From positions 5,126,501 to 5,190,500 of the forward strand of contig NZ_RBXL01000001.1 of assembly GCF_003634315.1 (NCBI RefSeq): a stretch of DNA of 64,000 nt, written 5' to 3'. The notes below the pieces were generated by a model. That model was not told the DNA's origin and searched no databases. It saw nothing but the letters and a program-made list of their open reading frames with translations. Positions 920-48,410 of this stretch are shown in pieces. Every line of letters begins with the position of its first letter. The stretch's first letter is position 1. Made by a program: the position numbers and the translations under genes. This DNA is from Thiocapsa rosea (lineage in GTDB: Bacteria > Pseudomonadota > Gammaproteobacteria > Chromatiales > Chromatiaceae).

Positions 920-935
920 CGCAAAAAACGAGCCA
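920..935 (-). promoter_or_regulatory. Sigma54 -24/-12 promoter for pqqA
   Basis: Read on the minus strand the sequence is TGGCTCG-TTTT-TTGCG, against the consensus TGGCACG-N4-TTGCW. The invariant GG (933-934) and GC (921-922) are exactly 10 bases apart. It predicts a start near 909, leaving about 105 bases before the pqqA ATG. Bases 805-1208 hold no gene that I can support. Confidence 0.7.
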
Positions 936-1029
936 GTCTTGGCGAACTCATCGCACGGACCGCTCTCCGTACAGCTCCGCGCGACCCCGCCCGCACAAGC
1001 TCGGGCACCGCCTCGCCGACAGGTCGCTC

Positions 1030-1047
1030 TGTGTCATCGTTGAAACA
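1030..1047 (-). promoter_or_regulatory. 18-bp inverted repeat, putative activator site upstream of pqqA
   Basis: TGTGTC-ATCGTT-GAAACA, with half-sites matching at five of six positions. It is centred about 104 bp upstream of the -24 element, the usual place for an enhancer-binding-protein site. The same pattern recurs near 2345, 29790, 38739 and 48402. Confidence 0.5.
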
Positions 1048-1208
1048 GTCTGCTCAATGTCTGCGCCATCGGGAGAAGCCGACTTGATTGACCCGGGCAC
1101 CCCGGAGGGAAACAGTCTTCGCGAAGCCAACTTTAGGCCGCAGGCCTCCCATGTTTCGTTCGTCCGCAGGGGCGTTTGACTCGAGCGGCCCGACCCGGCA
1201 TTGGGAGG

Positions 1209-1574
1209 CTAGTCGTATTTCAGATACTTGAAGCGAGGATCGTCCGGTGTGCCCTCCAACGCACTGCCGGCCTCCGGCCGCCAAGTGATTATTTCCTCGA
1301 TCTTACGGGCCAGCTCGAAGTCTTTGTCGGTCACGCCCTTCGCCGAGTGGGTGACCAGTTTGACGATGACGAAGGCATAGGACACGGTCAGGTCCGGGTG
1401 GTGCCAAGCCGCCTCCGCCAAGTGGCCGACGGCATTAACGACCATCAGCGTGCTTTTCCACCCGGCGGTACGGTATTTGCGCCGCAGCCAGCCGTCCTCC
1501 AAATACCAGTGGGGGAGCTCGGTCGCGATGCGCTCGCGAATCTCTTCCTCGCGATAAGTCTTCTCGTCGGACAT
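1209..1574 (-). CDS. 4a-hydroxytetrahydrobiopterin (pterin-4a-carbinolamine) dehydratase family protein
   Basis: A 121-residue protein of the PCD/DCoH family. The diagnostic motif is AWHHPDLTV, where the His pair is catalytic in the family, followed by VKLVTHSAKGVTDKDFELA. The start is the ATG at 1574 (MSDEKTY), because GGAGG lies 8 bases upstream; the ATG seven codons earlier would place that Shine-Dalgarno inside the gene. PCD normally recycles the pterin-4a-carbinolamine made by aromatic amino acid hydroxylases, but homologues are often found beside molybdopterin or pterin-cofactor genes with no hydroxylase. Here the neighbours are pqqA and the SCO gene on the same strand, and H4MPT genes are 6 kb away, so a role in pterin metabolism of the C1 pathway is possible but not shown. 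Confidence 0.85.
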   Translation of the reverse strand: MSDEKTYREEEIRERIATELPHWYLEDGWLRRKYRTAGWKSTLMVVNAVGHLAEAAWHHPDLTVSYAFVIVKLVTHSAKGVTDKDFELARKIEEIITWRPEAGSALEGTPDDPRFKYLKYD

Positions 1575-1612
1575 GAATGATGCCTCCGTTGACATCGGGC
1601 GAAGCCTCGGCC

Positions 1613-2182
1613 TCAGTCCGCGGGCTCTGCGGACACCAGCAGATCCCGCACCGCTCTGACGATCTCCTCGACCGGCAGACCGTAGGGGAGGATGCGAGCG
1701 AGACGGCCCTCGGGATTCAAAACATAGATAGAAGCGGAATGATCCAGCGTGTAATGCCCCCCCGCCCCCTCGTCCACGAAGGCGTAGCGCACACCGAAAA
1801 GCTCGGCGACCTCTCGGAGTCGCTCGGCAGATCCGGTGAGGGCGATCAATCGTGGGTGGAAGAAGCCCGCGTAATCGCGCAGCCGCGACGAGGTGTCGCG
1901 CCCCGGATCGAGCGAGACGAAAAGTGGCTGCACACGCTCGGACTGGTCGCCGAGTCGACGCAGCGCCTCTGCGATCATGGCCAGTGTCGTAGGACAGATA
2001 TCCGGGCAGAAGGCGTAGCCGAAAGTCAAGATCACGACCCTGCCGCGCGCGTCGGCCAAAGCGAAAGGCGCCTCATGCTGATCGATCAAGGTAAAGTCCC
2101 CGCCCAGAGGTCCCGCCGATACATCCTCTGCGTCGATCATGAGCAGGACGACCAAGGCCGCAAGCGTTCGTGATAGGGACAT
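1613..2182 (-). CDS. SCO1/SenC-family copper chaperone / thiol-disulfide protein
   Basis: A 189-residue exported protein. Residues 1-23 form a signal peptide ending DVSA. The thioredoxin-like SCO domain carries the copper-binding/redox CPDIC (CxxxC) motif after LTFGYAFC, and the third ligand His in YTLDHSA. The start at 2182 is fixed by a GGAGGA 10 bases upstream; open sequence further upstream is ignored. SCO proteins deliver copper to cytochrome oxidase CuA and to other periplasmic copper enzymes. The gene is divergent from mtoX, and methanethiol oxidase clusters described in other bacteria contain a SCO1/SenC gene, so copper delivery to MtoX is the natural proposal. A second SCO domain is fused to MauG two genes away. 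Confidence 0.9.
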   Translation of the reverse strand: MSLSRTLAALVVLLMIDAEDVSAGPLGGDFTLIDQHEAPFALADARGRVVILTFGYAFCPDICPTTLAMIAEALRRLGDQSERVQPLFVSLDPGRDTSSRLRDYAGFFHPRLIALTGSAERLREVAELFGVRYAFVDEGAGGHYTLDHSASIYVLNPEGRLARILPYGLPVEEIVRAVRDLLVSAEPAD

Positions 2183-2335
2183 CGTTGGTTCCTCCAGCCA
2201 ATGGATCGAGGCAAACCTCGTGCCGGCAGGCATGACGCCTCCATACCGATTGCAGCATACAGTCGCCGATGCGCGCCTCCGGGCGCCTTGAGATCGACGG
2301 GGTAGCACGTCCGGCGCGCGACTGCCGGACACCGG

Positions 2336-2353
2336 TGTCTCGGAAACGGAACA
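2336..2353 (+). promoter_or_regulatory. 18-bp inverted repeat, putative activator site upstream of mtoX
   Basis: TGTCTC-GGAAAC-GGAACA fits the pattern yGTnnC-N6-GnnACr. It overlaps a second short palindrome, GACACCGGTGTC (2328-2339), and is centred about 94 bp upstream of the -24 element of mtoX. A role for the AcoR-like regulator is inferred. Confidence 0.45.
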
Positions 2354-2436: not shown

Positions 2437-2452
2437 TGGCGCGATAGTTGCG
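2437..2452 (+). promoter_or_regulatory. Sigma54 -24/-12 promoter for mtoX
   Basis: TGGCGCG-ATAG-TTGCG differs from TGGCACG-N4-TTGCW at one -24 position and the last base. GG (2438-2439) and GC (2450-2451) have the required 10-base spacing. The predicted start near 2463 gives a leader of about 100 bases before the mtoX ATG. The rest of 2183-2563 holds no gene that I can support. Confidence 0.75.
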
Positions 2453-2563: not shown

Positions 2564-3940
2564 ATGTCGTACACCACTCTCCGATACCGCGGCACGAGCA
2601 CCCTGATTATCCTCGGCATCTTAAGCGCAGGACTCGTCGGCCTGGCTCAGGCCGACGAGACGTGTGTCTCGCCCTACTCGCCGAAGATCCTCGGCCAGGA
2701 AGACGTCGCCTATGTCTGGACCCTCGGGGTCGAAGGAATCGGCGATGAGCAGGACAAGCTGGTCACGGTCGATACCAACCCCGATTCCACGAACTTCGGT
2801 CAGGTCATCCATACGGTGTCGGTGGGCGGGCGCAACGAGGCGCACCACTCCGGCTACACGGATGATCGACGCCACCTCTGGGCCGGCGGGCTCGACACCA
2901 GCAAGATCTTCATCTTCGACGTCCACTCCGATCCGGCAGCCCCGAAGCTCGAAAAGGTTGTCGAGGATTTCGTGAAGGCCAGCGGCGGTGTCGTGGGTCC
3001 GCACAGCTTCTTCGCCTTGCCCGGACGCATGATGATCTCCGGCCTCTCCAACAACGCCGACCATGGCGGACGCACCGCACTGGTGGAGTACACCAACGAT
3101 GGAGAGTACGTGGAGACCTATTGGCTGCCGACCGACGACAATCTGCAAGGCGCCGAGAAGACCGGCAACTATGCCGACGGCTACGGCTACGACGTGCGCT
3201 TCCTACCGGCCAAGAACATCATGGTGACGACCTCCTTCACGGGGTGGTCGAACTACATGATGGATTTCGGCAAGATGCTGACCGACGAGGAGGCGATGAA
3301 ACGCTTCGGCAACACGGCCGTGGTGTGGGACCTGCACAAGCGCCAGCCCCTCAAGGTCTTCGATGTCCCGGGGGCGCCGTTGGAGATTCGTTGTGCCTGG
3401 GGCAACAACTACTGCTTCACGACCACTGCCTTGACCTCCAAGATCTGGCTGATTTACGAGCATCGAGAGCAGGGCTGGACCGCCAAGGAGGTCGGCACCA
3501 TCGGGGACCCCTCGCAGATACCCTTGCCTGTGGCCTTCTCCATCAGCTCCGATGACCGTTTCCTCTGGGTCAATACGTTCATGGATGGCTCGACTCGCCT
3601 GTTCGACGTGTCCAATCCCTTCGAGGCCAAGCTCGTCGAGACCTTCAAGATCGGCTCTCAGGTCAACATGGTCTCGCAGAGTTGGGACGGCACGCGGCTG
3701 TACTTCAGCTCCTCGCTGCTGGGCAACTGGGACAAGAAGGACGACCAAGACGAGCAGTTCCTGAAGATGTACCGATGGGACGGCGAGAAGCTGAGCAAGG
3801 GCTTCGAGATCGATTTCTACGAGCAGAAACTCGGCCGCGCACACCTGATCACCTTGAATGCACGCGCGCTGTTCGACGGCAATATGGCCTCTGTCCCGGC
3901 CATGACCGGCGCCCTCGCGGCGACAAGGTCCGACGATTGA
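2564..3940 (+). CDS. mtoX: MtoX, periplasmic copper-dependent methanethiol oxidase (SBP56 family)
   Basis: A 458-residue protein of the selenium-binding protein 56 family. It has an export signal (residues 1-30, ending GLAQA) followed by the SBP56 seven-bladed body with family segments such as CVSPYSPKI near the mature N-terminus, GGRNEAHHSGY, GGVVGPHSFFALPG and RCAWGNNYCFTT. The bacterial members with a signal peptide are methanethiol oxidases that convert CH3SH with O2 to formaldehyde, H2S and H2O2 and need copper. GGAGG lies 8 bases before the ATG. It is preceded by a sigma54 promoter and followed immediately by a SCO1-MauG fusion and a MauG-like gene, matching the mtoX-SCO1/SenC-MauG context known from Hyphomicrobium. 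The formaldehyde product explains the H4MPT genes next door. Confidence 0.93.
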   Translation: MSYTTLRYRGTSTLIILGILSAGLVGLAQADETCVSPYSPKILGQEDVAYVWTLGVEGIGDEQDKLVTVDTNPDSTNFGQVIHTVSVGGRNEAHHSGYTDDRRHLWAGGLDTSKIFIFDVHSDPAAPKLEKVVEDFVKASGGVVGPHSFFALPGRMMISGLSNNADHGGRTALVEYTNDGEYVETYWLPTDDNLQGAEKTGNYADGYGYDVRFLPAKNIMVTTSFTGWSNYMMDFGKMLTDEEAMKRFGNTAVVWDLHKRQPLKVFDVPGAPLEIRCAWGNNYCFTTTALTSKIWLIYEHREQGWTAKEVGTIGDPSQIPLPVAFSISSDDRFLWVNTFMDGSTRLFDVSNPFEAKLVETFKIGSQVNMVSQSWDGTRLYFSSSLLGNWDKKDDQDEQFLKMYRWDGEKLSKGFEIDFYEQKLGRAHLITLNARALFDGNMASVPAMTGALAATRSDD

Positions 3941-4013
3941 GTCGAGCGTGCCGGGCCGGGCATCGCGTCGGCGCCCGCCGAGCGGGCGCCGTCGACCGGG
4001 GCCGGGCAACTCC

Positions 4014-5897
4014 ATGAGCTCGCGATGCCTCCGCGCCCTGACCTTGGCGGTGCTGTCGGGCCTCGTCTGCCTCGATGGCTCCGCCGGGTCTCCGGCGACC
4101 CTCGACACCGAGAGGGTGCCGAGTGCACCGCCCAGGCCCCAGGTCTTGGCGCCGGGCTACGCCAACCTGCGATTCGCACCACCGGAGCCGGGCGCCTATC
4201 GGCTGCCCGTGATCAGCCGAGCGGCGGACGGCGGCCTGCTCGACACCGAAGGCGAGCCGGTTCGTCTACACGACATCTACGACGGCCGTTACGTCATCCT
4301 GAGCTTCATCTACAGCTCCTGCAGCGATGTCAACGGCTGCCCCTTGGCGACTTACGTCCTCTATCGGCTGTTCCAGAGGATCGCGCGGGATCCCGCGCTG
4401 GCCGAGCAGGTGCGACTGCTGACCTTGAGCTTCGACCCCGTGCACGACACCCCCGAGGTGATGCGGCTCTACGGCGCGGGCTTCATCGGACAGGGCGCGG
4501 AGTGGGTCTTCCTCACGGCCGAATCCGAGGCCGCGCTCGACCCGATCCTCGCGAGCTATGGGCAGTCCGTGACCCGGATGCCCGGGGGCGGATCCGGCGA
4601 GGTCATCTCGCACGTGCTGCGCGTCTTTCTGATCGATCGGGAGAAACGAGTGCGCAACATCTACAGCACATCGTTTCTGCATCCGGATCTGGTCCTGGCG
4701 GACCTGCAGACCCTCGTTCTCGAAGCCCGCGAGGGCACAGCCCCTCGACCGCAAGACCCCGCCGTCGAGTCCCCGCGGACCCGTGAGCTGCTGATGCAGA
4801 CCCGCCATCCACCCCTTGGTCTACCCCCCTTACCCGCGCCGCCGCAGACCTCCGGAAACACGGGGCTCACCGCGGCCAAGATCGATCTGGGGCGTCGTCT
4901 GTTCTTCGATCGCCGACTGTCCGCCAACGGCACACTCTCCTGTGCCATGTGTCACATCCCGACACAGGGGTACACCAACCACGCCATGTCGCGGGCCGTC
5001 GGCATCGGCGGACGCTCGCTGCGGCGCAACGCCTCGAGCCTCTACAACGTCGGTCATGTCGACCCGCTCTTCCCCGACGGTCGCGAGCGCTTCCTCGAGA
5101 GTCTGACCTGGCAGGAGCTGCTCGACCTGAACCGCATGGGGAATCGGTCCGTCGCCATGGTCTTGGACGAGATCCAATCCGCGTCGGACTATCGCGGGCT
5201 CTTCGAGGCGGCCTTCGACGGTCGGCCCGCGGGGCTCGAGACCCTCGGCGAAGCGATGGCGACCTATCTGCGCACGCTGGTCTCCGGTCAATCACCGTTC
5301 GATCGTTGGTACTACGGCGGGGAGCTCGGCGCCCTGGATGCGTCGGCCGAGCGCGGCTTCGAACTCTTCACGGGCCGGGCCGGATGTGCCGACTGCCATC
5401 GGCTCGGCGATGACCATGCGCTCTTCACGGACCAGCGTCTCCACAATACGGGGATCGGCTGGGCTCACTCGATGCAGCCGCAGCCACGCCGACGGACCCT
5501 GGAGATCGTGCCCGGCGTGCGGATCGAGGTGGACCTGCAGGCCGTCGCCGGGACCGAGGAGCGCCCTTACAACGACCTAGGACACTACGAGGTGACGCAG
5601 GACCCCGTCGATCGCTGGCGATTCCGCACCCCGAGCCTGCGCAATGTCTCGGTGACCGCCCCCTATATGCACGACGGCAGCCTGACGGACCTCGACGCGG
5701 TCGTGGCCTACTACGACCGCGGCGGCCATCCCCACCCCGAGTTGGACGAGCGGATCCGACCGCTCGGTCTCTCGGCGCAGGACCGGGCGGATCTGGTGGC
5801 CTTTCTGCATGCCCTGGAAGGCGACAATCTCGCCCTGATCGAGGCCGACGCCGCTGTCGCGCCGATCGGGATGCCCGCCGGTCGCAGAAGCGATTGA
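4014..5897 (+). CDS. SCO1/SenC domain fused to MauG-type dihaem cytochrome c peroxidase
   Basis: A 627-residue exported fusion. After a signal peptide (1-25, ending GSAG) residues about 45-240 form a SCO/thioredoxin domain with cysteines at 103 and 109 (CSDVNGC, five residues between instead of the usual three) and the ligand His at 200. Residues about 265-620 form a dihaem CcpA/MauG domain with haem motifs CAMCH (310-314) and CADCH (458-462). MauG-like proteins use high-valent haem to make protein-derived cofactors; CcpA enzymes reduce peroxide. The ATG at 4014 is chosen because the signal peptide starts there; the Shine-Dalgarno is weak. Being 73 bases after mtoX, it probably supports MtoX maturation or disposes of its peroxide product. 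Which one cannot be told from sequence. Confidence 0.9.
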   Translation: MSSRCLRALTLAVLSGLVCLDGSAGSPATLDTERVPSAPPRPQVLAPGYANLRFAPPEPGAYRLPVISRAADGGLLDTEGEPVRLHDIYDGRYVILSFIYSSCSDVNGCPLATYVLYRLFQRIARDPALAEQVRLLTLSFDPVHDTPEVMRLYGAGFIGQGAEWVFLTAESEAALDPILASYGQSVTRMPGGGSGEVISHVLRVFLIDREKRVRNIYSTSFLHPDLVLADLQTLVLEAREGTAPRPQDPAVESPRTRELLMQTRHPPLGLPPLPAPPQTSGNTGLTAAKIDLGRRLFFDRRLSANGTLSCAMCHIPTQGYTNHAMSRAVGIGGRSLRRNASSLYNVGHVDPLFPDGRERFLESLTWQELLDLNRMGNRSVAMVLDEIQSASDYRGLFEAAFDGRPAGLETLGEAMATYLRTLVSGQSPFDRWYYGGELGALDASAERGFELFTGRAGCADCHRLGDDHALFTDQRLHNTGIGWAHSMQPQPRRRTLEIVPGVRIEVDLQAVAGTEERPYNDLGHYEVTQDPVDRWRFRTPSLRNVSVTAPYMHDGSLTDLDAVVAYYDRGGHPHPELDERIRPLGLSAQDRADLVAFLHALEGDNLALIEADAAVAPIGMPAGRRSD

Positions 5898-6085
5898 GCC
5901 GGGCGCATCGGGCCATCGCAGAACGCCTTGAAAAAGCTCAAAGGCTCCACTTGAGCGCCAAGGTTCTCAAGGGTTGGAATCCGACTCACTACTTGCGGGC
6001 AGAGTGAACCAAAAAATGCCTTCGACCCGTTGTTGTTCCGTGCCCCATCGACGCCTTTTCGGATCCGGTTTCAGGGGCTAGCGTG

Positions 6086-7366
6086 ATGGGAAGGACTCGG
6101 AACCCCCGGCCATCGATCTGCCGATCAGCCGTGCTCGCGGCCGCTCTCCTCTGCGCGCCCGGGGCCATCGCAGTCGTCGATGGCCCCGGCGATGACCGGA
6201 CCGGCTACGAACGGCCCGATTACCAAACCCGCTCGCGCGCACTCGCGGCGCGGGTCGGCGTGGAGGCGGATCTCTCGGCACGGGTCCGAACCCCTCCATT
6301 GGGCCTGCCCCCCGTGCCCGAGCCGGCCGACAACCCACTCACCGCGCAGAAGATCGCATTGGGCCGCAAGCTCTTCTTCGACCGCCGGCTCTCGCTGAAC
6401 GGGACCCAATCCTGCGCCATCTGCCATATCCCGGAGCAGGGATTCACGAGCAACGAGCTGGCAACCGCGGTGGGTCTCGAGGGACGCGACGTCGGCCGCA
6501 ATACCCCCACGCTCTACAACGTCGCCTATCGGCGCGTCCTCTTCCACGACGGGCGCGAGCGCACCCTGGAGCACCAGGCCTGGCAGCCCATGATCAACCC
6601 GCTGGAGATGGCGAATCCATCGATCGGTCACGTCCTCGCGCGCCTGCGCGACCTTCCCGACTATGCAGGGCTCTTCGAGCTCGCCTTGGATGGCCGTCCG
6701 GCCACCATGGACGGTGTCGGCATGGCGCTCGCGAGTTACCAACGGACCTTGGTCTCCGCCGATTCGCCCTTCGATCGCTGGTATTTCGGCGGCGACGCGG
6801 ACGCCCTGAGCAAGAGCGCACAGCGTGGCTTCGCCCTTTTTACGGGCGACGCCGGCTGCCACGCCTGTCATATCGTCGGCGAGGATCATGCACTCTTCAC
6901 CGATGACGGTCTGCACAACACGGGGACGGGGTATGCCCGTGACATGGCGCCGACGCATGCCTCGGCGCCCCGTCCGGTGACCCTGGCCCCCGGCGTCTTC
7001 GGAACCCTGTCGCCGGCGGCCCTGGCCTCGGTGTCGCGGCCGGGCCGAAGTCACGATCTCGGGCGCTATCACATCACCGGCGATCCTGCCGACCGCTGGC
7101 GATTCCGCACACCGAGCCTACGCAATGTCACCCTCACGGCGCCCTATATGCACGACGGCTCGCTGCGCACCTTGGCCGAGGTGGTGGATTTCTATGACCG
7201 GGGCGGCGAGCCCAATCCGCTGCAGGATCCACGTCTCCGCCCCCTCGGGCTGACGCCCGAGGCACGGTCCGATCTGGTCGCCTTCCTCGAATCATTGACG
7301 GGCGAGTACCGGACCCTGGTCCTGGATGCCTTCGCGGCGCCGATCGGCGAGGCGGGGGGACGATGA
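6086..7366 (+). CDS. MauG-like dihaem cytochrome c peroxidase (paralogue of the preceding fusion)
   Basis: A 426-residue exported dihaem protein with a signal peptide (about 1-29) and haem motifs CAICH (110-114) and CHACH (258-262). It aligns closely with the C-terminal half of the upstream fusion, sharing LGLPP near the start, FFDRRLS before haem 1, and DHALFTD, WRFRTPSLRNV and PYMHDGSL further on. It therefore looks like a tandem duplicate without the SCO domain. A GTG immediately precedes the ATG; I use the ATG at 6086, which has AGGGG nearby. About 190 bases separate it from the fusion, so a separate promoter is possible. It converges with fhcC 19 bases away. The substrate is unknown; MtoX maturation or peroxide removal are the reasonable options. 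Confidence 0.88.
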   Translation: MGRTRNPRPSICRSAVLAAALLCAPGAIAVVDGPGDDRTGYERPDYQTRSRALAARVGVEADLSARVRTPPLGLPPVPEPADNPLTAQKIALGRKLFFDRRLSLNGTQSCAICHIPEQGFTSNELATAVGLEGRDVGRNTPTLYNVAYRRVLFHDGRERTLEHQAWQPMINPLEMANPSIGHVLARLRDLPDYAGLFELALDGRPATMDGVGMALASYQRTLVSADSPFDRWYFGGDADALSKSAQRGFALFTGDAGCHACHIVGEDHALFTDDGLHNTGTGYARDMAPTHASAPRPVTLAPGVFGTLSPAALASVSRPGRSHDLGRYHITGDPADRWRFRTPSLRNVTLTAPYMHDGSLRTLAEVVDFYDRGGEPNPLQDPRLRPLGLTPEARSDLVAFLESLTGEYRTLVLDAFAAPIGEAGGR

Positions 7367-7385: not shown

Positions 7386-8201
7386 TCAAGGCGCCCACAC
7401 CAGGACTTCTCCCTGCCCGCCGTTGGCGAGGTCGCCGAGCCAGCGGTCGACAGTGATGCCGCGGGCATCCAATCGGGAGAAGGGACCGTCGCGGGTGGCC
7501 AACGCGTCGGCGAAGAGTCTCAGGAACCCGAGCGCATGGGGGCCGTTGTGGTTGAAGGTCGGCGGTAGGCGCGGCTGCGCGGTCAGGAGGATCGTGCCGC
7601 GACGCATCGCGAACCCGGTCTGTGCGCCGGTCCGACCCAGGACGAGGATGGTGCCCGCGGTCATCCGGGATGCGCAATAGTCGCCGGCATCCCCGGCGAT
7701 CAGGATCAGACCGCGCCGCTGATGGTCTCCGACGCGATCGCCGGCGTTGCCGTAAACCTCGATCCGTCCCCCGCGCAGCCCCCGACGCTCGCCGGGGATG
7801 GCGGCGCCGAGAAAGTCCCCGGCGTTCCCCCCGATGTGCAGTGTCCCGCCGGTCATCCCGGTGCCGGCGAAGATGCCGACATCTCCGCTCACCCGGATGC
7901 TCCCGCCCCGCAGATCCCGCCCCAGATAGGCCCCGGCGCGGCCCTCGACTCGAATGGTCCCTCGGGTCGATCCCGCTCCGATGCCGTCCAGGCGATCGCT
8001 GTCGGAACGGATCACGAGATCCTCGCGCGTGCCCTCGTCGACAGTAAAGAGATCACCGGTCGGGACCTGTCGATTCCCGACCCAGAGCGGCAGACGTCGG
8101 ATCGCCTCCGCGGACGACTCGGCAAGCCGACCGGGCGTGAAGGCCGACATCTCGATGCGCTGGCGCGGCGCCTCCCGCAGGGTCAGCGTCAGCGGGCTCA
8201 T
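7386..8201 (-). CDS. fhcC: FhcC, formyltransferase/hydrolase complex subunit C
   Basis: A 271-residue homologue of formylmethanofuran dehydrogenase subunit C, a right-handed beta-helix built from repeated glycine-rich turns (for example RVEGRAGAYLGRDLRGGSI, GNAGDFLGAAI, GNAGDRVGDHQRRG). In methylotrophs FhcC is a structural subunit of the Fhc complex that releases formate from formyl-H4MPT via methylofuran. It is the last gene of the fhcBADC set and overlaps fhcD by four bases (ATGA). It ends 19 bases from the convergent MauG-like gene. Confidence 0.94.
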   Translation of the reverse strand: MSPLTLTLREAPRQRIEMSAFTPGRLAESSAEAIRRLPLWVGNRQVPTGDLFTVDEGTREDLVIRSDSDRLDGIGAGSTRGTIRVEGRAGAYLGRDLRGGSIRVSGDVGIFAGTGMTGGTLHIGGNAGDFLGAAIPGERRGLRGGRIEVYGNAGDRVGDHQRRGLILIAGDAGDYCASRMTAGTILVLGRTGAQTGFAMRRGTILLTAQPRLPPTFNHNGPHALGFLRLFADALATRDGPFSRLDARGITVDRWLGDLANGGQGEVLVWAP

Positions 8202-9094
8202 GTGAGGATCTCCCGCAGGTGAAAATGAAACGGACCCAGCTTGCCGCCATAGTTACCGGCCGAGATGCGCAGCACCCCGGCGTCCGGCCCGAGGTCGCAG
8301 ACGGCACGCACGCCGACGCGTGTGGCCTCGCGCACGTCCGCCTCGGTCAGCCCGTTGATGACGATTTCGAGCACGGCGCCGGTCTCGGCTTCGAGTCGGG
8401 ATCGCACCAGTCCACGCAGGGTCGGGCAATAGGCATCGTTCGTGGAGGCCATCAGTGCCTTGTACTTGGAGCCGACCTTGGAGCCGGAGCGGGCAATACC
8501 GCCGGGGAAAGGCAAGAGGACGTCGGGCAGCCGTCGGATCGCCTCGACCGCCCGCTCGCAGGCCGCCAGCGCCCCGGGTAGCGTGCGCGCCAACACCAGG
8601 AAGTTGCCGCCGCCGACGGCGCTGGTCCGCGCGGTCATCTCTTCGCAGAGGAACTCGCCGTCCATGACCGGGACGCGCCAGAAACGCCGACCTCCGATCT
8701 GTTTGGAAATCTGATGACCATCGCCGAAGAAACGCAAGCTCTTGCCGAGCGGGACCGGCTTTTCGCTCGCCATGCCCGAGAACACAGCTGTAGTCGGGCA
8801 GGTGAGGACGCACTGCCCGACACGCCGCTCGACCTGCTTGGCCAGGTCCGACCCCGACATGGCGAACAGCAGCACGCTGATCCCCGGGCGGCCGTCCGGC
8901 GTCTCTGCTTGGGGGATCTCGGACTCGATCCCGGCCTCGACCCCGCAGCCGATGACCGAGGTCGCAAAGCCGGTCATGGTCTCACCCGCCACACGTGCCC
9001 AATGGGGGTTCAGCGCGGTGATGATCAGGCGCGTGGCCGTCATCCCGAATGCCTCGGCGAAGGTGTCGTCGATCGGGATGCCGTTGAGCCTCAT
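8198..9094 (-). CDS. fhcD: FhcD, formylmethanofuran:H4MPT formyltransferase subunit
   Basis: A 298-residue Ftr-family protein starting MRLNGIPIDDTFAEAFGMTA, as in archaeal Ftr and bacterial FhcD, with the conserved GGGNFLVLA, MASTNDAYCPTLRG and SAGNYGGKLGP stretches. It transfers the formyl group from formyl-H4MPT to the methylofuran carried by FhcA, the first step of formate release in the cytoplasm. It overlaps fhcA and fhcC by four bases on either side, so translation is probably coupled. The length is normal and nothing looks broken. Confidence 0.95.
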   Translation of the reverse strand: MRLNGIPIDDTFAEAFGMTATRLIITALNPHWARVAGETMTGFATSVIGCGVEAGIESEIPQAETPDGRPGISVLLFAMSGSDLAKQVERRVGQCVLTCPTTAVFSGMASEKPVPLGKSLRFFGDGHQISKQIGGRRFWRVPVMDGEFLCEEMTARTSAVGGGNFLVLARTLPGALAACERAVEAIRRLPDVLLPFPGGIARSGSKVGSKYKALMASTNDAYCPTLRGLVRSRLEAETGAVLEIVINGLTEADVREATRVGVRAVCDLGPDAGVLRISAGNYGGKLGPFHFHLREILT

Positions 9095-10761
9095 ACGCCA
9101 CCTCGCGGCCGGCAGGCATGGACCTCGATCGGGCTGCCGATACCTTCCGCCATCTCGTCGTCGGAGATGGCGAAGTTGTCGAAGCTCATCGTGTGATAGC
9201 GGTCGAACCAGTCCGAGACGCGCTGTTCGATAGCCCGGTCGTACTCGGGGCGCACGACCTGGGTCGCCCCTCGCACCACACGGACGATGGCCCCCTCCTC
9301 CACCACGACCTCACCAGCCTTGAAGACCAGCATGGGCCGCGCGAAGGTCTGCTCGGGGTCCGCCAGCGGATGATAGACCGTGATGTCGGCACGTGCGCCG
9401 CCGCCCAGATGTCCCCGGTCGGTCAGTCCGAGGAGGCGGGCAGGACCGGCCCGGGTCATGATGGCGATTTCGTCGAGACTGTACTCCCGTTGCAGGGATC
9501 CCAGACAGCTCATGGCAGCGGCCTCCGGGTGGATCCGGGCGAGCTGCTCGTTGCGGAAGCCCCGATCCATCAGGAGGCGAATCAGCCTGGGGTAGCTGGT
9601 AAAGGGGGCGCCGTTGGGGTGGTCGGTCGTGAGGAAGACCCGCCAGGGGTCGTCCACCATGAGGAAGAGCTCGAGGCCGATCGCCCATTGGAGTGCATTG
9701 ACGAAGTTCTTGTCGCGATAACGGAAGGGCACGACCCCGCAGCCCGCCTCGCACTCGATGTCCATGCAGGTCCACTTGCCGGGATGGGCATGGCGATGAT
9801 TGGCATGCTGGTGCATCGTATCGCCCGAGATGGTCACGGTCTGGCCGAACATGACCTGACCCACGTCGATGCTGACGTTGCGGCGCCGATTCACAGCTTC
9901 GGCGATCTCGGCGGCAGCCGAGGAAAAATGGAGATCGCCCTGCGTCCCGTAGCTGTGGAATTGGATATGGGTTAAGTGGATCGGCAAACCTTCCGCCGCG
10001 TCCATGGTGGCCAAGGTGGCGCTGTAGTTTCCGGGCACCCCGAGGTTGCTCGCATGCACATGGAGCGGATGCGGAACCCCGAGCTCCGCGATCGCCCGGC
10101 TCAAGGTGCGCAGAATGTCGCGAGGACGCAGTGGGTAGTGCGGGTGCCGCTCGTCGACGTCCAGCGACCGGGCGTTGAACTTGAAAGCACTGATACCGCC
10201 CGGATTGACGACCTTGATTCCGATACATTGAGTCGCCCGCAGGGTCCAAGCGACATAGTCGTTGATCGTCTCCTGGCTCGCGCCCTCGCTCATGAGTTGC
10301 AGCAGCAGATCGTCATTGCCGAGCAAGGCGTATCCGCCGGTATCGAGCATCGGGGTGTCGGCCATCTCCATATGGGCCTGCCGCGCATTGATGGGCAGCA
10401 CCGCCGGCTCGAAGCAGGTGGTGTAGCCCATCTCGGAATAGCGATAGCCCGCGGCCAGGCTCGCGGGCGCGGCATGCCCGCCGCCCGAGCGGGTCAGGGC
10501 CGTGCGTGGACGCACATGGGCCCGCTGATCCTCCGGCAACATGGTACGGGCGATGTTGACCTTCCCCCCGCCGATATGGGTGTGAAGGTCGATGGCGCCG
10601 GCCATGACGAGTTTTCCGTCGAGCGCGTAGGTCCGCTGCGGGACTTCCCCCGATGGCGCCTCGGACAGGATGCGGCCGTCGCGGATGTAGAGATCGCGGA
10701 CCTCGCCGTCGACCCCGTTTGCCGGATCGAACAGGCGGCCGCCGGCGAGCTTGGTCAGCAC
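9091..10761 (-). CDS. fhcA: FhcA, formyltransferase/hydrolase complex subunit A (amidohydrolase)
   Basis: A 556-residue amidohydrolase-superfamily protein. The metal-binding H-x-H is DLHTHIGGGKVN (His60 and His62), with further His in PLHVHASNLG, HLTHIQFH and TTDHPNG. In the Methylobacterium complex this subunit hydrolyses formyl-methylofuran to formate and carries methylofuran as a tightly bound prosthetic group. I start it at the GTG at 10761: the frame continues upstream but that part overlaps fhcB, and GTGCTGA gives the tight overlap usual in this operon. It lies between fhcB and fhcD and is complete. Confidence 0.94.
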   Translation of the reverse strand: MLTKLAGGRLFDPANGVDGEVRDLYIRDGRILSEAPSGEVPQRTYALDGKLVMAGAIDLHTHIGGGKVNIARTMLPEDQRAHVRPRTALTRSGGGHAAPASLAAGYRYSEMGYTTCFEPAVLPINARQAHMEMADTPMLDTGGYALLGNDDLLLQLMSEGASQETINDYVAWTLRATQCIGIKVVNPGGISAFKFNARSLDVDERHPHYPLRPRDILRTLSRAIAELGVPHPLHVHASNLGVPGNYSATLATMDAAEGLPIHLTHIQFHSYGTQGDLHFSSAAAEIAEAVNRRRNVSIDVGQVMFGQTVTISGDTMHQHANHRHAHPGKWTCMDIECEAGCGVVPFRYRDKNFVNALQWAIGLELFLMVDDPWRVFLTTDHPNGAPFTSYPRLIRLLMDRGFRNEQLARIHPEAAAMSCLGSLQREYSLDEIAIMTRAGPARLLGLTDRGHLGGGARADITVYHPLADPEQTFARPMLVFKAGEVVVEEGAIVRVVRGATQVVRPEYDRAIEQRVSDWFDRYHTMSFDNFAISDDEMAEGIGSPIEVHACRPRGGV

Positions 10762-12032
10762 GGCAGCCGCTCCTTCAAACCTGCGATGACCTCGGCCACC
10801 GACGGCAGGCCCAGGTCCCGCATTCGTCCCAGAGGCAGCGGGCAAGACGCATCCGTGCGATACCAATGTCCGGGATGGTCGATACCGGGCAGGCCCACCG
10901 GGATGGAAACTTCCGGCGTCCAGTCCAGACTCATCCCCGGGTAGCCCAACAGGATGGTGGGTCGAACGCTCGGGGGAGGTCCAGACGGCGTCGGGAGCGC
11001 AGCAACCCACACCAGCAGGTCGCACTCGTCGCGGGCGATCAGATCCTGATATCGGTTGAGCATGGGATCGTAGGTCGCACGACCCTGTTGCAGGCCTACC
11101 CGCAAGGGATAGCCGATCTGCCAGGTGCAGACCTGGCTGGCCGTCAGATCTCCGAGCGTCCCGGACAAGGGCAACGCGGCGGCGCGGGTGGTTTCGTTCA
11201 GATCCCGAACTAGCTCGACCAGCGCCTGGACCGTCAACTCGGCATGGGGAAAATCGAGCTCCGCGGCCGCCCAGATGACCAAGGCATAACGAGCGACGCG
11301 CAGTCGCTCAGCCAGATCCACCAGCGAACCGCCCGGGATCCCGGAAACAGCATCGCTACGCACCGGGCGGCCCGAGAGCATGCCTCGCAGAATGCCCGCA
11401 ACGCCCGCCAAATCCTCGAGCGCGACCGGGATTCGGATGGGTTGCAGTGCTTGAAGTGCTGTCGGAACCGGCGACGCGTCCGGGGGGGCGAGCCATACGA
11501 GACGCCGGTCCTCCGGGGACGAGAACAAGGCTTCAGTCGGGACCAGCACCCGTTCGATGAGACGCGGAAACTCTCGGAGGCACTGGTTGCCGACCATCAG
11601 GATGAGATCGGCACGGTTTCTCGCCTCGGTCAGGGTGGTCGTCATCCAACCGCCGTCCTGGAGGACGAGGAGGTTGCGGAAGAGCGCATCGCCGTTGTGG
11701 TGATCCAGCACGGCACCGCAACGATCGGCGAGGTCCAATACGGCCCGCATGCCGTTCACATCCGTCACCAACCCTGCGAACAGCGGAGCATGGGCCGCAT
11801 GAACCAGCCCGGCCGCATGCTGGAGTGCCTCGACGAGGGGTACCGGTCGGCCCCGAATCGCGGGTGTCGATGGGGGCAGATGCGCGATACTCGAGAAGGC
11901 ATCATCGGCCGAACGGCATCCGGTCGGCTCGACAAGATGACCGTCGCCGGCGCCTCGCAGATTGTCGCAGGCCAGACCGCAGAAAGGGCACGTCAGGTTA
12001 TCGCGGCGACCGGCCGGTTCGGCATTCCACAT
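10755..12032 (-). CDS. fhcB: FhcB, formyltransferase/hydrolase complex subunit B
   Basis: A 425-residue protein related to the molybdenum/tungsten subunit FmdB/FwdB of formylmethanofuran dehydrogenase. It keeps an N-terminal cysteine cluster (CPFCGLACDNL, near residue 15) but belongs to the bacterial form, which is thought to be structural and not a redox enzyme. The start at 12032 gives MWNAEPAGRRDNLTCPFC, the normal N-terminus; no strong Shine-Dalgarno is visible. It heads the fhcBADC operon. The 500 bases upstream, shared with the divergent beta-RFAP synthase gene, contain one candidate sigma54 element. Confidence 0.9.
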   Translation of the reverse strand: MWNAEPAGRRDNLTCPFCGLACDNLRGAGDGHLVEPTGCRSADDAFSSIAHLPPSTPAIRGRPVPLVEALQHAAGLVHAAHAPLFAGLVTDVNGMRAVLDLADRCGAVLDHHNGDALFRNLLVLQDGGWMTTTLTEARNRADLILMVGNQCLREFPRLIERVLVPTEALFSSPEDRRLVWLAPPDASPVPTALQALQPIRIPVALEDLAGVAGILRGMLSGRPVRSDAVSGIPGGSLVDLAERLRVARYALVIWAAAELDFPHAELTVQALVELVRDLNETTRAAALPLSGTLGDLTASQVCTWQIGYPLRVGLQQGRATYDPMLNRYQDLIARDECDLLVWVAALPTPSGPPPSVRPTILLGYPGMSLDWTPEVSIPVGLPGIDHPGHWYRTDASCPLPLGRMRDLGLPSVAEVIAGLKERLPC

Positions 12033-12197
12033 GGTGTTCTCTGCGCTGAAGGTTCGATGCCCTGCGCGGGCCGGGTAGTCGAGCCGACCAAATCCACGGT
12101 CGCATCGGGGTCGTGAATAACAAATCCGATCCGAATTGTCGGCAAGACCAACTGCAAGGCGGTCGAGCGGGCAACCGGTCGACCCGCTACGGGTCAT

Positions 12198-12213
12198 AGC
12201 ACCAATCACGCCA
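12198..12213 (-). promoter_or_regulatory. Possible sigma54 -24/-12 element for fhcBADC
   Basis: On the minus strand TGGCGTG-ATTG-GTGCT keeps GG and GC at 10-base spacing but departs from consensus at three other places. It would start transcription about 155 bases before fhcB. Unlike the other five promoters it lacks the 18-bp upstream repeat; a different inverted repeat (TGTGGCA-N9-TGACACA, 12330-12352) lies upstream. The rest of 12033-12538 shows no gene. Confidence 0.35.
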
Positions 12214-12538
12214 GATGACCGAAACCTGCGGGGCCGCCAGCGACGTCACCCCTTGAGCCATTCCTCCCGCAGCGGGCAGGCAATGACGACACGGACCGCC
12301 GCGTCTTCTCGAATCCGCGATGCAGCCGATGTGGCACCGCGGTCGTGACACAGTGAGTCAAGGGCGGGACACCATAACCAAGACCAGATCGAGACCGGGT
12401 GCGCCACGCTCCGCATGCGGCGGGCAGTGGCCCGAAGAAGCGCAGGCCCCGCCGAGCGAGTGTCAAATCAAGCGGGATAGGTATGGAATTTGCTTTCAGC
12501 CTCCTTAACATTGGAATCTACAGGAGTCGCGACGCCAC

Positions 12539-13549
12539 ATGCCCAACCGCCGATTCGACGCCATCGACGTGGAGGCGCCGGCCCGACTTCACCTCGGATT
12601 CCTGGATCTGAACGGAGGGCTGGGCCGGCGCTTCGGTAGTCTCGGACTGACGATCGATGGTTTCGCAACTCGCCTGCGTGCGCAACGTGGGGAAGGCATC
12701 AGCGCCGATGGTCCGGGCGCCGATCGCGCCATCGCGTTCGCAACAGCGCTCATACAGGCGCGAGGCTTCAGCGGCGGTGTCCGGATCGACATCGAGGAAA
12801 TCACCCCGCAGCACACCGGAATGGGATCCGGCACCCAGATCGCGTTGGCCGTAGGAACCGCATTGGAGCGACTCTATCCCGAGATCCACGCGGAGGGCAC
12901 GGATTGTAGGGTTCTTGCACGAACGCTCGGCCGCGGCCAACGTTCCGGAATCGGGATCGGTGCATTCGAAAAGGGCGGGTTCATCGTCGACTGCGGCCGC
13001 GCCGAGCGAGGGGAGGTTCCCCCCGTGGCTCTGCGTCTCCCGTTCCCGGAGGATTGGAGAATCCTGTTGGTGCTGGATCAACGCGGTCAAGGCTTGCACG
13101 GCGACCGGGAGGTCCGCGCCTTCAAGGCACTCCCGCTGTTCCCCGACGATGCGGCTGGGCGTCTGTGTCGAGTCCTTTTGATGCAGGTCGTACCGGGCCT
13201 GATCGAGCGACACCTGGATCCCGTCGCCGAAGGCATCGGGGAAATCCAGCGAGTAATCGGCGAACACTTTGCGCCGGCCCAAGGCGGTCGCTTCGCGTCG
13301 CCTCGGGTCGCGGCGGCGCTGCAATGGGCTGCCGCCAAAGGCTTCGCCGGGATCGGCCAGAGTTCATGGGGGCCTACCGGCTTCATCCTGGCGCCGGACG
13401 AGTATCAAGCCCGATGGTTGGAGCAGGGATTGAATCAGCACTTCGGCGAGCTGGCTCCACTGCGTTTCCGGATCGTCACCGGACGCAACCTGGGTGCCGC
13501 TCTGAATCCGGTGCATACACCCCTGCAATTGAGGCGCACCCACAGATGA
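12539..13549 (+). CDS. Beta-ribofuranosylaminobenzene 5'-phosphate synthase (H4MPT biosynthesis)
   Basis: A 336-residue GHMP-kinase-fold protein of the beta-RFAP synthase family (archaeal MptG; bacterial Orf4). Family segments include APARLHLGFLDLNGGLGRRFG near the N-terminus, TPQHTGMGSGTQIALAVG (the GHMP loop), and GRGQRSGIGIGAFEKGGFIVD. The enzyme condenses 4-hydroxybenzoate or p-aminobenzoate with PRPP, the first committed step to the methanopterin arm, so this gene marks a complete H4MPT pathway and not only scavenging. The pabB gene 10 kb downstream would supply aminobenzoate. It starts the large plus-strand H4MPT operon, 36 bases before mtdB. Confidence 0.92.
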   Translation: MPNRRFDAIDVEAPARLHLGFLDLNGGLGRRFGSLGLTIDGFATRLRAQRGEGISADGPGADRAIAFATALIQARGFSGGVRIDIEEITPQHTGMGSGTQIALAVGTALERLYPEIHAEGTDCRVLARTLGRGQRSGIGIGAFEKGGFIVDCGRAERGEVPPVALRLPFPEDWRILLVLDQRGQGLHGDREVRAFKALPLFPDDAAGRLCRVLLMQVVPGLIERHLDPVAEGIGEIQRVIGEHFAPAQGGRFASPRVAAALQWAAAKGFAGIGQSSWGPTGFILAPDEYQARWLEQGLNQHFGELAPLRFRIVTGRNLGAALNPVHTPLQLRRTHR

Positions 13550-13585
13550 TGACCCGACGGCGGACCGAAAAGGTCGGAGCAACCG

Positions 13586-18542: not shown

Positions 18543-18562
18543 AGAGCGAAGGAGAACCTGCT

Positions 18563-19075
18563 ATGTCCGTTATCAATAAGACCCTGGTCGGTGAATCGCT
18601 GGTCGGCGAAGGCAACGAAGTCGCGCATATCGACCTCATCATGGGACCGCGCGGCTCCGCGGCCGAAGCGGCCTTCTGCAACGCCCTCGTCAACAACAAG
18701 GACGGCTTCACCAGCCTGCTCGCGGTCGTCGCACCCAACTTGGCTGTCAAGCCGAACACCGTGCTGTTCAACAAGGTGACCATCAAGGGCGCCAAACAGG
18801 CCGTGCAGATGTTCGGTCCGGCCCAGCGCGGTGTCGCCATGGCCGTTGCCGATTGTGTCGAAGACGGTACGATCCCGGCGAGCGAGGCCGACGACACCTT
18901 CATTTGTGTCGGCGTCTTCATCCACTGGGATGCCGAGGACGACACCAAGATCCAGGACTACAACTACCAGGCCACCAAGGAGTCCATCCAGCGCGCGGTG
19001 GCGGGCGAGCCCACGGCGAAGGACGTCGTGGCCCGCAAGGGGAGCGAAGCCCACCCGTTCGCAGCCCACGTGTGA
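18563..19075 (+). CDS. fae: Fae, formaldehyde-activating enzyme
   Basis: A 170-residue Fae, essentially textbook: [17 protein letters not shown] carries the catalytic His region, followed by [30 protein letters not shown] and [11 protein letters not shown]. It condenses formaldehyde with H4MPT to methylene-H4MPT, the entry point of the pathway and the likely sink for formaldehyde from MtoX. AAGGAG lies 9 bases before the ATG. A strong hairpin directly follows the stop. Confidence 0.97.
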
Positions 19076-27931: not shown

Positions 27932-28036
27932 GGTGTCTCGCTCCGGAATTCGGGGTGTGGTGGCGGGCCCGCCGGCCCGACCACCGCATCGACCGGGAGC
28001 GCACACCTTGCGGCGCGCATCTCCCGGGCGCCATCC

Positions 28037-38810: not shown

Positions 38811-38826
38811 TGGCCCATCCTTTGCT
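38811..38826 (+). promoter_or_regulatory. Sigma54 -24/-12 promoter for the metallohydrolase/SoxYZ/fds genes
   Basis: TGGCCCA-TCCT-TTGCT: GG (38812-38813) and GC (38824-38825) 10 apart, full TTGC box, two changes in the -24 box. It predicts a start near 38837, 36 bases before the metallohydrolase ATG, in the 93-base divergent gap. Confidence 0.65.
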
Positions 38827-46012: not shown

Positions 46013-46018
46013 CGTCCT

Positions 46019-47155: not shown

Positions 47156-47313
47156 TATCCCGGCACCGAAGACGGATCGGCAACTGAGCATGCGGCGGCG
47201 ATCGCGGGTCGGCACCGCACAGGTTATGTCATGCCGCAGGCCGTCGGAGCAGGCCGAACTCATCCGACGACAACGCAGATCGGCGGAATCCGAGCCCTCG
47301 TGCATGTTTGCCA

Positions 47314-47649
47314 CTACTGGGTTTGCAACCACTCCGCAATGATCTGGAATTCTTCGTCGGTCACGCTTCCGACAACGGCTTTCATCGCGATCGACAGCCC
47401 GTTGGTGCGTCTGCCGTCACGAATATCCTTCATCTGTTGCAGGGAGTAGACGGCATTCTGACCCGCGAGTTTGGGATAGGCGGGGATCGTCGGCTCGTCG
47501 GGGTTTGCGCCATGGCAACTGTGACAGACCTTTTCCTGGTAGAGAGTCGCGCCATCGGCGGCCTGAACGGCGTCGGCAGAACCGACGGAGAGAGCGGCCA
47601 CAAGGGCCGTGGTGGTCGATATCCCGCCGCGTGTCTTCTTGTTGTTCAT
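47314..47649 (-). CDS. Small monohaem c-type cytochrome
   Basis: A 111-residue exported cytochrome: signal peptide about 1-30 (ending DAVQAAD), haem site CHSCHGAN, and a distal Met candidate in LSIAMKAVVG. It resembles class I c4/c5-type cytochromes that accept electrons from periplasmic dehydrogenases. Of two adjacent ATGs, the one at 47649 has the better Shine-Dalgarno spacing (GGAGG, 5 bases). It follows the small Cys-containing protein on the same strand by 109 bases and is probably co-transcribed from the sigma54 promoter near 48.3 kb. Bases 47156-47313 hold no gene. Confidence 0.85.
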   Translation of the reverse strand: MNNKKTRGGISTTTALVAALSVGSADAVQAADGATLYQEKVCHSCHGANPDEPTIPAYPKLAGQNAVYSLQQMKDIRDGRRTNGLSIAMKAVVGSVTDEEFQIIAEWLQTQ

Positions 47650-47758
47650 CATTGCCTCCTCGGATTTCAAACGATTCAACCCGCGTCCAGCCTCGGGATC
47701 TTGGTTTCGCCGAGGCGATCGGGCCGACAAAAACGTCAAGACTCGCTCCCGACGCCGC

Positions 47759-48148
47759 TCAAAAACAGCGCAACGTGGATTCGGCCTGGACCTCCTTGAA
47801 ACGGGCAATCGCCTGCTTGGCCCAGGGCGCACCCTTGAACGCCGTGTTCCTTCCTGAACCCTCAATCTGCTGCATCCGCATGAGGGTCTCGATCGTCTCG
47901 TAGTCGTCGTACGGGATGGCAGCGGCGATGAAGTCGAAGCTGCAGGAGCAGCGTCTGATCGTCTCGAGGCTCTGTCCGTTGGCGACCATGCAACCGAGGA
48001 CATAGTCGGCGATGACGGCGGTCGGATAGGGCGCCGGCGCCACGCCCGGCGGCGCCGGACAATCGGAGGCGGCCACCATGTTTCCCCACAGCAGCAAGCC
48101 GAGAAACGACAAGAGGGGACGTCGTCCGTTGGGCATTCTGTTCACCAC
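47759..48148 (-). CDS. Small exported Cys-containing protein of unknown function
   Basis: A 129-residue protein I do not recognise. A signal peptide (PLLSFLGLLLWGNMVAAS) is followed by DCPAPPG, a central C-x13-CSC arrangement (LGCMVANGQSLETIRRCSCS) and a C-terminal RCF, so five Cys in the mature part. The start is the GTG at 48148, because AAGGAG (48155-48160) lies 6 bases upstream; the ATG four codons later is too far from it. It precedes the cytochrome c gene on the same strand and faces the PQQ-associated ABC operon. A role with a quinoprotein dehydrogenase is suggested by context only. Confidence 0.65.
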   Translation of the reverse strand: MVNRMPNGRRPLLSFLGLLLWGNMVAASDCPAPPGVAPAPYPTAVIADYVLGCMVANGQSLETIRRCSCSFDFIAAAIPYDDYETIETLMRMQQIEGSGRNTAFKGAPWAKQAIARFKEVQAESTLRCF

Positions 48149-48304
48149 AAGCGGCTCCTTGGTTAAGTGGCTCGTTGATTCGTTGTCGGAGTCGAAAACG
48201 GAGGATCTGCGTCTCCTCGCGCGGCCCGGCGCCCGCCGTACGGGATGGGTCTGCAGGTTTGAATACGATCGGAGTCCACCGGATGGCTGCGCGCCGAGCA
48301 CTAA

Positions 48305-48320
48305 TGCAATCGACATGCCG
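48305..48320 (-). promoter_or_regulatory. Sigma54 -24/-12 promoter for the Cys-protein/cytochrome genes
   Basis: On the minus strand CGGCATG-TCGA-TTGCA: GG (48318-48319) and GC (48306-48307) 10 apart, full TTGCA box. The predicted start near 48294 leaves about 145 bases of leader to the GTG start. Apart from this and the repeat below, 48149-48766 shows no gene. Confidence 0.65.
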
Positions 48321-48392
48321 CTGCGGCGCGCGCCCTGCTTCGGGCGGTCAGGCGCCAACGGGCGGCTGGAGTCGGCGGCACAAACAAGCGGG

Positions 48393-48410
48393 CGTGTCAG
48401 AAGTGACACG
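48393..48410 (-). promoter_or_regulatory. Perfect inverted repeat, putative activator site
   Basis: CGTGTC-AGAAGT-GACACG, part of a perfect 8-bp repeat with 4-base spacer (48392-48411). It is centred about 82 bp upstream of the -24 element at 48.3 kb and about 365 bp before the divergent PQQ-associated operon. It is the best-formed copy of the motif shared by five promoters here. Confidence 0.55.

Follow-up and report, generated by a model that had tools for sequence, protein, structure and literature searches.

A candidate sigma54 regulon for one-carbon oxidation in Thiocapsa rosea and its relatives, with an AcoR-type activator as proposed regulator

The genome of the purple sulfur bacterium Thiocapsa rosea (6.11 Mb) contains a stretch of 64,000 nucleotides (G000:C1:5126501-5190500, hereafter the window; 65% GC) in which genes for pyrroloquinoline quinone (PQQ) synthesis, methanethiol oxidation and formaldehyde oxidation lie in the same region as a gene for an AcoR-type sigma54 activator. 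Are these genes controlled together? A preliminary description of this DNA had proposed so, on the basis of five GG-N10-GC promoters, each preceded by an element of 18 base pairs (bp). Our comparative analysis points to a sigma54 regulon for one-carbon oxidation with the activator at 33038-35002 as proposed regulator, and we put the probability of this reading at roughly three in four. The idea of a common regulon stood; the mixed list of functions gave way to one theme, one-carbon oxidation, and the SCO promoter and the promoter pair of the tetrahydromethanopterin (H4MPT) formaldehyde pathway had been missed.

Promoters and operators in the window

Sigma54 sites were scored as matches among the 12 specified positions of TGGCACG-N4-TTGCW, with a GG-N10-GC core. 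The window contains 26 sigma54-like sites scoring at least 9, of which 8 score at least 10. All five promoters claimed earlier were present (935-, 2437+, 29645-, 38811+ and 48320-, with the sign giving the strand), each at 10/12. The 18-bp elements were found upstream of all of them (at 1030, 2336, 29781, 38730 and 48393), with 72.5-144.5 bp from element centre to -24 box. Four fit yGTnnC-N6-GnnACr exactly and the one at 29781 has one mismatch, as had been described. The predicted promoters and operators (the latter without strand) are the following; ranks are among 63,983 window positions, by a matrix trained without this genome.

920..935, minus strand: sigma54 promoter of pqqA, TGGCTCGTTTTTTGCG, 10/12
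1030..1047: predicted operator of the pqqA promoter, TGTGTCATCGTTGAAACA, rank 1/63,983
2210..2225, minus strand: sigma54 promoter of SCO, CGGCACGAGGTTTGCC, 10/12, 119.5 bp from operator 2336; newly found
2336..2353: predicted operator common to SCO and mtoX, rank 3/63,983
2437..2452, plus strand: sigma54 promoter of mtoX, TGGCGCGATAGTTGCG, 10/12
12198..12213, minus strand: sigma54-like promoter of the fhc genes, TGGCGTGATTGGTGCT, 9/12; newly found
12354..12371: predicted operator of fhc/rfap, TGAGTCAAGGGCGGGACA, rank 9/63,983
12479..12494, plus strand: sigma54 promoter of the H4MPT operon (rfap, mtdB-like, mch, fae), AGGTATGGAATTTGCT, 9/12; newly found
29630..29645, minus strand: sigma54 promoter of exaC, TGGCAAGCCTCGTGCT, 10/12
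29781..29798: predicted operator of exaC, TGCTCCACTTTCGGAACA, one mismatch, rank 8/63,983
38811..38826, plus strand: sigma54-like promoter of the relay hydrolase, possibly also of soxYZ and fdh, TGGCCCATCCTTTGCT, 10/12; membership doubtful
48305..48320, minus strand: sigma54 promoter of cytochrome c, CGGCATGTCGATTGCA, 10/12
48393..48410: predicted operator of cytochrome c, CGTGTCAGAAGTGACACG, rank 5/63,983

Two of the operators are placed between divergent promoters. The one at 2336 sits between mtoX (2437+) and SCO (2225-) and forms the conserved island of this intergenic region in a six-genome alignment judged by eye. The operator at 12354 is common to the fhc promoter (12213-) and the promoter of rfap, the operon head (12479+). 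Thiorhodococcus drewsii (G116, L087) has a matching arrangement, with sigma54 site 16178- in the equivalent place and operator TGAGTCAGCAGGGACACA. Since this arrangement recurs there, the formaldehyde pathway belongs to the set; it is the natural outlet for carbon from methanol and methanethiol. Other counterparts in T. drewsii are TGTGTCAGCTGGGGAACA, located 97.5 bp upstream of sigma54 site 4912- (L086), which we take as the presumed pqqA promoter, an exaC promoter matching 11/12 (TGGCACTCCAATTGCT), and a cytochrome c promoter, also 11/12 (AGGCACGTGATTTGCT), with operator CGTGTCAGAACTGACACG.

Outside this set, an operator-like sequence at 56461 (rank 6) is located about 81 bp upstream of sigma54-like site 56551+ (10/12; together 56461-56566 of the window). 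The site faces an ExbB/ExbD/TonB operon about 730 bp further on, possibly for metal uptake serving the methanol dehydrogenase XoxF.

Recovery of the motif and its pairing with promoters

For de novo motif search, 37 of 56 target-gene promoters were used, near-duplicates and the SCO, fhcB and fhcD promoters having been dropped; most of the latter overlap DNA of mtoX or rfap promoters. A palindromic motif finder, supplied with no motif, returned TGtnnCannnntGnnaCA with a log-likelihood of 120.1. Twenty dinucleotide shuffles of the promoters reached only 46.6-57.2. When 37 sites at a time were drawn from 39 non-target sigma54-like sites of the same loci, the six overlapping samples yielded other motifs at 60.3-62.8. 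Compatible motifs were obtained from the 14 rfap promoters alone and from the 23 others alone. When this genome was left out, the 30 promoters of relatives gave TGtnnCagnnctGnnaCA, i.e. TGtnnC-N6-GnnaCA. The matrix built from them ranked pqqA 1st, mtoX 3rd, cytochrome c 5th, exaC 8th and fhc/rfap 9th in the window, which covers the elements of four of the five originally described promoters.

The preliminary description had relied on the rarity of the pattern. This argument had to be abandoned: the bare motif yGTnnC-N6-GnnACr occurs 9 times in the window and 315 times in the genome, below the 546 copies of a reversed-pattern control, and the fuller consensus with at most two mismatches occurs 94 times genome-wide versus 90 for its control. 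Because copies are this common, the motif alone proves nothing; its pairing with a sigma54 site does. The improbable placement before promoters was borne out in this form. We counted exact elements 55-150 bp upstream of a sigma54 site and used 360 letter-permuted palindromes as controls. Of the 8 window sites with a sigma54 score of at least 10, 5 were paired (permutation mean 0.17), and the true motif ranked first of 360; at a threshold of 9, 5 pairs were found versus a mean of 0.43, with 2/360 permutations as good. Other genomes, represented by 26 loci (482 kb), had 6 pairs versus 0.54 (at least 10) and 12 versus 2.47 (at least 9); 3/360 were as good, the true motif included, and the rivals were its near-variants. 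For 14 loci of other families (237 kb), the counts were 5 versus 0.38 at the threshold of 10 (5/360 as good), 9 versus 1.88 at 9 (6/360) and only 1 versus 0.15 at 11 (37/360). Hence the motif is enriched before sigma54 promoters beyond permuted palindromes, both in the window and in other genomes.

The activator, its co-occurrence with the promoters, and rival readings

33038..35002, minus strand: AcoR-type sigma54 activator, proposed regulator; Pfam GAF 74-209, Sigma54_activat 348-511, HTH_8 609-648

By Pfam, the protein combines the three parts of an AcoR-type activator, namely a GAF sensor, an AAA+ sigma54-interaction domain and a Fis-type helix-turn-helix (HTH). A GAFTGA loop is present at residue 419 and is kept in all 35 homologues examined. 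The promoters carry the TGT-N10-12-ACA operator upstream of -24/-12 that goes with this activator type, with the binding protein presumed. Within this genome, which has one sigma54 gene and encodes 15 sigma54-activator domains, it is the sole protein matching at E<=1e-100. Three sensor cysteines (Cys42, Cys142 and Cys166) do not vary among 27 orthologues and hardly vary among 8 paralogues; since the paralogues nearly keep them too, they are no mark of a one-carbon-specific sensor. Autoregulation was considered and rejected, a sigma54 site of at least 9 being present upstream of only 5 of 23 activator-homologue genes.

The presence of the activator was compared with promoter architecture. Where the activator is present, 14 of 15 rfap loci have a sigma54 site of at least 10 before the gene, compared with none of 17 where it is absent (Fisher 3e-8, kinship ignored); after dropping two near-duplicates per side, the contrast was 12/13 versus 0/15. 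At a threshold of 9 it was 15/15 versus 3/17, all three scoring 9. The activator-minus set was drawn from Fae-carrying genomes with no orthologue of at least 50% identity (rfap was present in 17 of the 20 loci retrieved, including that of G262, whose homologue is 47% identical). As background, among 309 other gene starts in the scanned loci a site of at least 10 was found at 12 and of at least 9 at 40. The scores of the rfap operators also differed in distribution between activator and control loci (Mann-Whitney 0.002). Activator (at least 50% identity) and Fae occur together in 11 of 116 family genomes, the activator in 14 and Fae in 12; exceptions are G076, G079 and G101 (activator without Fae) and G065 (Fae without activator). 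Among 369 genomes of the class, 13 of 14 with the activator carry Fae (exception G477), compared with 49/369 overall. Of eight genomes from both searches with a best homologue 42-49% identical, one (G262) has Fae. These comparative statistics ignore shared ancestry.

Similar results were obtained for other targets. In a scan of 20 mtoX loci, sigma54 site plus operator was found in 7 of 11 with the activator and in none of 7 testable loci without it; G073 and G094 were untestable since their contigs end. XoxF relatives 77-100% identical had a sigma54 site in 7/7 rows (6 distinct loci), and the paralogues of about 40% identity in 0/6 rows (5 loci), with the copy L114 (about 40%) and the partial L118 left out of the scan. 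What was established computationally is that the promoters and the operator exist, are conserved and co-occur with the activator. The earlier attribution of one regulon to the activator at 33-35 kb is well supported by this comparison, in which the activator tracks both the rfap sigma54 promoter and Fae, and remains a prediction from genome sequences.

One locus, L096 (G138), has two consecutive sets of sigma54 site plus operator between SCO and mtoX (8093-10104), as if duplicated. A second AcoR-type activator, 42-43% identical, is encoded in four genomes (G017:C1:258521, G072:C1:3253620, G093:C14:357261 and G125:C1:1620870) at most about 4 kb from another PQQ dehydrogenase, likely a parallel alcohol system; in the three cases measured, that dehydrogenase is about 40% identical to the XoxF of the window genome. 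Upstream of the activator in the window lies a gene for a DUF3280 protein (35504-36094, minus strand), with homologues near the activator in G076, G095 and G135.

Homologues of the activator were also found in named genomes, for which the best 80 of 319 loci in a scan with the sensor domain were kept. They occur in Thiorhodococcus, Imhoffiella, Lamprocystis, Thiodictyon, Ca. Thiodiazotropha, Sedimenticola, Thiobacillus, Gallionellaceae, Glaciimonas, Massilia and others. In 74 of these 80 loci, one or more one-carbon marker genes are present on the DNA retrieved with the activator, a count made without a matched control (exceptions L184, L185, L203, L206, L242 and L258). The neighbours were of the H4MPT type in 40, PQQ/XoxF in 31, formate dehydrogenase in 20, exaC in 7 and mtoX in 3. 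A sigma54 site of at least 9 before a listed target gene was present in 29 rows of 25 loci, with an operator score of at least 9 in 13 of these rows, no chance rate being computed. Six betaproteobacterial SCO genes are preceded by a sigma54 site of at least 9 (L226, L238, L245, L250, L255 and L259), with operator scores of 11.1, 2.1, 12.6, 13.2, 10.2 and 7.1, respectively.

Several observations weigh against the proposed regulon or its extent. That the 74/80 count just given has no matched control is one. Another concerns the named loci with a PQQ dehydrogenase at least 60% identical (28, about 25 of them in Massilia-type Betaproteobacteria): a sigma54 site of at least 9 precedes this gene in only 5/28, with an operator score above 9 in two. 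Because these loci are poor in sites, the regulon, well supported in the Chromatiales, can be extended beyond them only tentatively. Exact pairs were also lacking in six further family loci (L139-L144). In the window, matrix ranks 2 (40061), 4 (35417) and 7 (48079) have no sigma54 site of at least 9 in range, and neither the bare motif nor the fuller consensus is in excess genome-wide. The rfap operators are degenerate: a matrix from the other promoters reached regional p<0.05 in 4/15 loci versus 2/17 controls and found none in G017 and G125. Although the activator is present in G017, G125 and G076, their mtoX loci (two in G125) do not show the architecture, and the XoxF gene of T. rosea is preceded by a sigma54 site and by no good operator. 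Absence of the activator was judged from the top first-look candidates of each genome, 3 in the class search and 10 in the family search.

The relay/soxYZ/formate branch adds to these points. At 38730-38747 the best score of the matrix trained without this genome is 3.15, i.e., it finds nothing there, and the element was rejected as a supported operator. Four of the five promoters proposed for the regulon therefore hold (pqqA, mtoX, exaC and cytochrome c), and the relay promoter loses its operator. No sigma54 site of at least 9 was found before soxYZ or fdh (39860-41000). The proposed inclusion of the formate genes is thus doubtful for this genome and holds in part for relatives, several of which carry a sigma54 site plus operator before a related formate dehydrogenase (34-38% identical). 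At the start of the SoxYZ fusion gene (40030-40078, plus strand) are two operator-like sequences, ranks 12 and 2, with no sigma54 site of at least 9 downstream; the rank 2 site at 40061 is a doubtful operator, as it falls within the first codons on the chosen start.

How else could these data be read? Promiscuous GG-N10-GC sites in 65% GC DNA combined with a loose palindrome might produce such pairs by chance, and the 26 window sites of at least 9 and the missing genome-wide excess of the bare motif would suit this. The permutation, shuffle, out-of-sample and activator-minus controls speak against chance, which we regard as highly improbable; it is refuted for the set as a whole and may hold for single members such as 38730. 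Alternatively, the promoters and operators could be real and bound by another activator, with the 33-kb protein serving only its neighbours. The 15 sigma54-activator domains in the genome leave room for this, and the HTH segment (SRNTLYRKM) is common to paralogues about 40-45% identical, which also counts against a dedicated regulator. However, the 33-kb protein is the only homologue here at the E-value given above, sits within the gene cluster, and occurs in step with the sigma54 promoter before rfap (14/15 versus 0/17). We therefore consider another activator improbable.

A regulon for alcohols and aldehydes in general, like those of BmoR or AcoR, with one-carbon genes as only some of the targets, would accommodate exaC and the DUF779 gene, as well as Massilia and relatives, in which the activator is encoded beside a PQQ dehydrogenase of the same family with no H4MPT genes within the fetched flanks. 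The strong co-occurrence of activator and Fae argues otherwise, as does the finding that three of the six best sigma54-bearing window matches (pqqA, mtoX/SCO, cytochrome c, 56461, exaC and fhc/rfap) plainly concern one-carbon or PQQ functions. This broader regulon appears unlikely, and we prefer the one-carbon regulon with the activator at 33038-35002.

Activators of the AcoR type bind their operator, loop to the sigma54 polymerase and hydrolyze ATP upon GAF occupancy. In the preferred reading, the activator would bind the 18-bp palindrome TGtnnC-N6-GnnaCA located approximately 60-150 bp upstream of the -24/-12 promoters. When the GAF domain senses a one-carbon metabolite, the activator would loop to sigma54 RNA polymerase, hydrolyze ATP and open it, and we infer that transcription starts at these promoters. 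This scheme is drawn by analogy with characterized activators of this kind, among them the one described in PMC8899819. PQQ synthesis, the XoxF-type methanol dehydrogenase and methanethiol oxidase with its SCO and MauG helpers would be switched on jointly, along with the H4MPT formaldehyde pathway, the ExaC-type aldehyde dehydrogenase, cytochrome c and, in several relatives, formate dehydrogenase. As to the inducer, formaldehyde is a guess to which we would give somewhat less than even odds. It is preferred because H4MPT-type genes are the commonest activator neighbours (40/80 named loci) and because two genomes, G013 and G138, combine the activator with mtoX and the H4MPT pathway, with no PQQ methanol dehydrogenase detected. 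A wider proposal falls just short of even odds: a lineage-wide master activator would sense formaldehyde or a close one-carbon signal and govern a sigma54 regulon by which methanol and methanethiol are oxidized to CO2. The formaldehyde pathway would be its core, to which individual lineages would have added modules for methanethiol, methanol and formate; the scheme would apply to Chromatiales and lucinid symbionts, and perhaps to sulfur and iron Betaproteobacteria that carry H4MPT.

Gene content and comparison with known systems

The genes concerned are listed below.

730..804, minus strand: pqqA, at the left edge of the window, translation ending PAYEDLRLGFEINLYINNR
2564..7366, plus strand: mtoX, methanethiol oxidase, and two MauG-like di-heme proteins (NCBIfam)
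7386..19075, both strands: fhcC, D, A, B (minus); rfap, MtdB-like, MCH, Fae and others (plus) (NCBIfam, Pfam)
27548..29557, minus strand: exaC aldehyde dehydrogenase (NF050026, 967.5 bits) and DUF779 protein (PF05610)

The first of these is presumably pqqA, judged by the family resemblance of its translation. Outside the window, in the 17 kb beyond pqqA (L021), pqqC, pqqE, a dehydrogenase of the PQQ methanol/ethanol family, a methanol-related cytochrome and a MoxJ-like protein are encoded. The dehydrogenase (TIGR03075, 773 bits) contains the motif DEWDYDG, whose extra Asp (DYD) we take as the mark of XoxF. MtoX scored 705.6 bits with NF052453 (cut-off 650) and has the expected neighbours, a SCO1/SenC match and a MauG-like pair, whose MauG/MbnH-family matches lie under their cut-offs. 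The H4MPT/methanofuran formaldehyde pathway comprises fhcCDAB, MtdB-like, MCH, Fae and cofactor genes. The window also encodes a quinoprotein-relay hydrolase, a SoxYZ fusion, an NAD-type formate dehydrogenase, cytochrome c and a PQQ-associated transport set.

In the open-licence literature, we found no description of a sigma54 regulon spanning methanethiol oxidase, PQQ/XoxF and the formaldehyde pathway, nor of a transcriptional activator of the bacterial H4MPT formaldehyde pathway. If the proposed regulon is correct, this pathway gains such an activator, and in sulfur bacteria and animal symbionts the oxidation of methanethiol is linked to that of methanol. A single protein and a defined 18-bp site would then suffice to test directly what signals one-carbon supply.

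Parts of the system have known counterparts. The mtoX operon of Ruegeria pomeroyi also includes SCO and MauG and is methanethiol-induced; however, an IclR-family regulator lies directly upstream, and a sigma54 promoter is not mentioned in the portion available (PMC5739008). In Ca. Thiodiazotropha endolucinida, an activator-bearing relative, genes for PQQ, methanol dehydrogenase, H4MPT and formate dehydrogenase are clustered; the accessible text describes this gene content without mention of sigma54 control (PMC6712303). Operators of 15 groups of AcoR/AdhR-type activators in Clostridiales are TGT/ACA inverted repeats with 10-12 bp between (PMC6615313), which resembles TGT-N12-ACA here, whereas their targets are fermentation and amino-acid genes and the AcoR group itself had a distinct motif. 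BmoR of Thauera butanivorans, likewise a sigma54 activator that responds to alcohols, also has an inverted repeat upstream of -24/-12, but acts on the butane monooxygenase promoter through an activating sequence 193 bp upstream (PMC8899819; likened by description). Work on Methylosinus sporium linked the sigma54 motif to nitrogen genes and found an RpoD-type promoter predominant before methane and central-carbon genes (PMC12403871). No methane monooxygenase operon is named among the annotated genes of the window, and the genome was not searched for one. Sigma54 control of the soluble methane monooxygenase operon is known in methanotrophs, where MmoR combines, as here, a sigma54 promoter and an activator, with a GAF domain in Methylocella, for an operon of one-carbon oxidation (PMC5874634). 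There, MmoR serves the mmo operon that carries mmoR, whereas the activator proposed here would serve several operons, those of PQQ, XoxF, methanethiol oxidase and the formaldehyde pathway.

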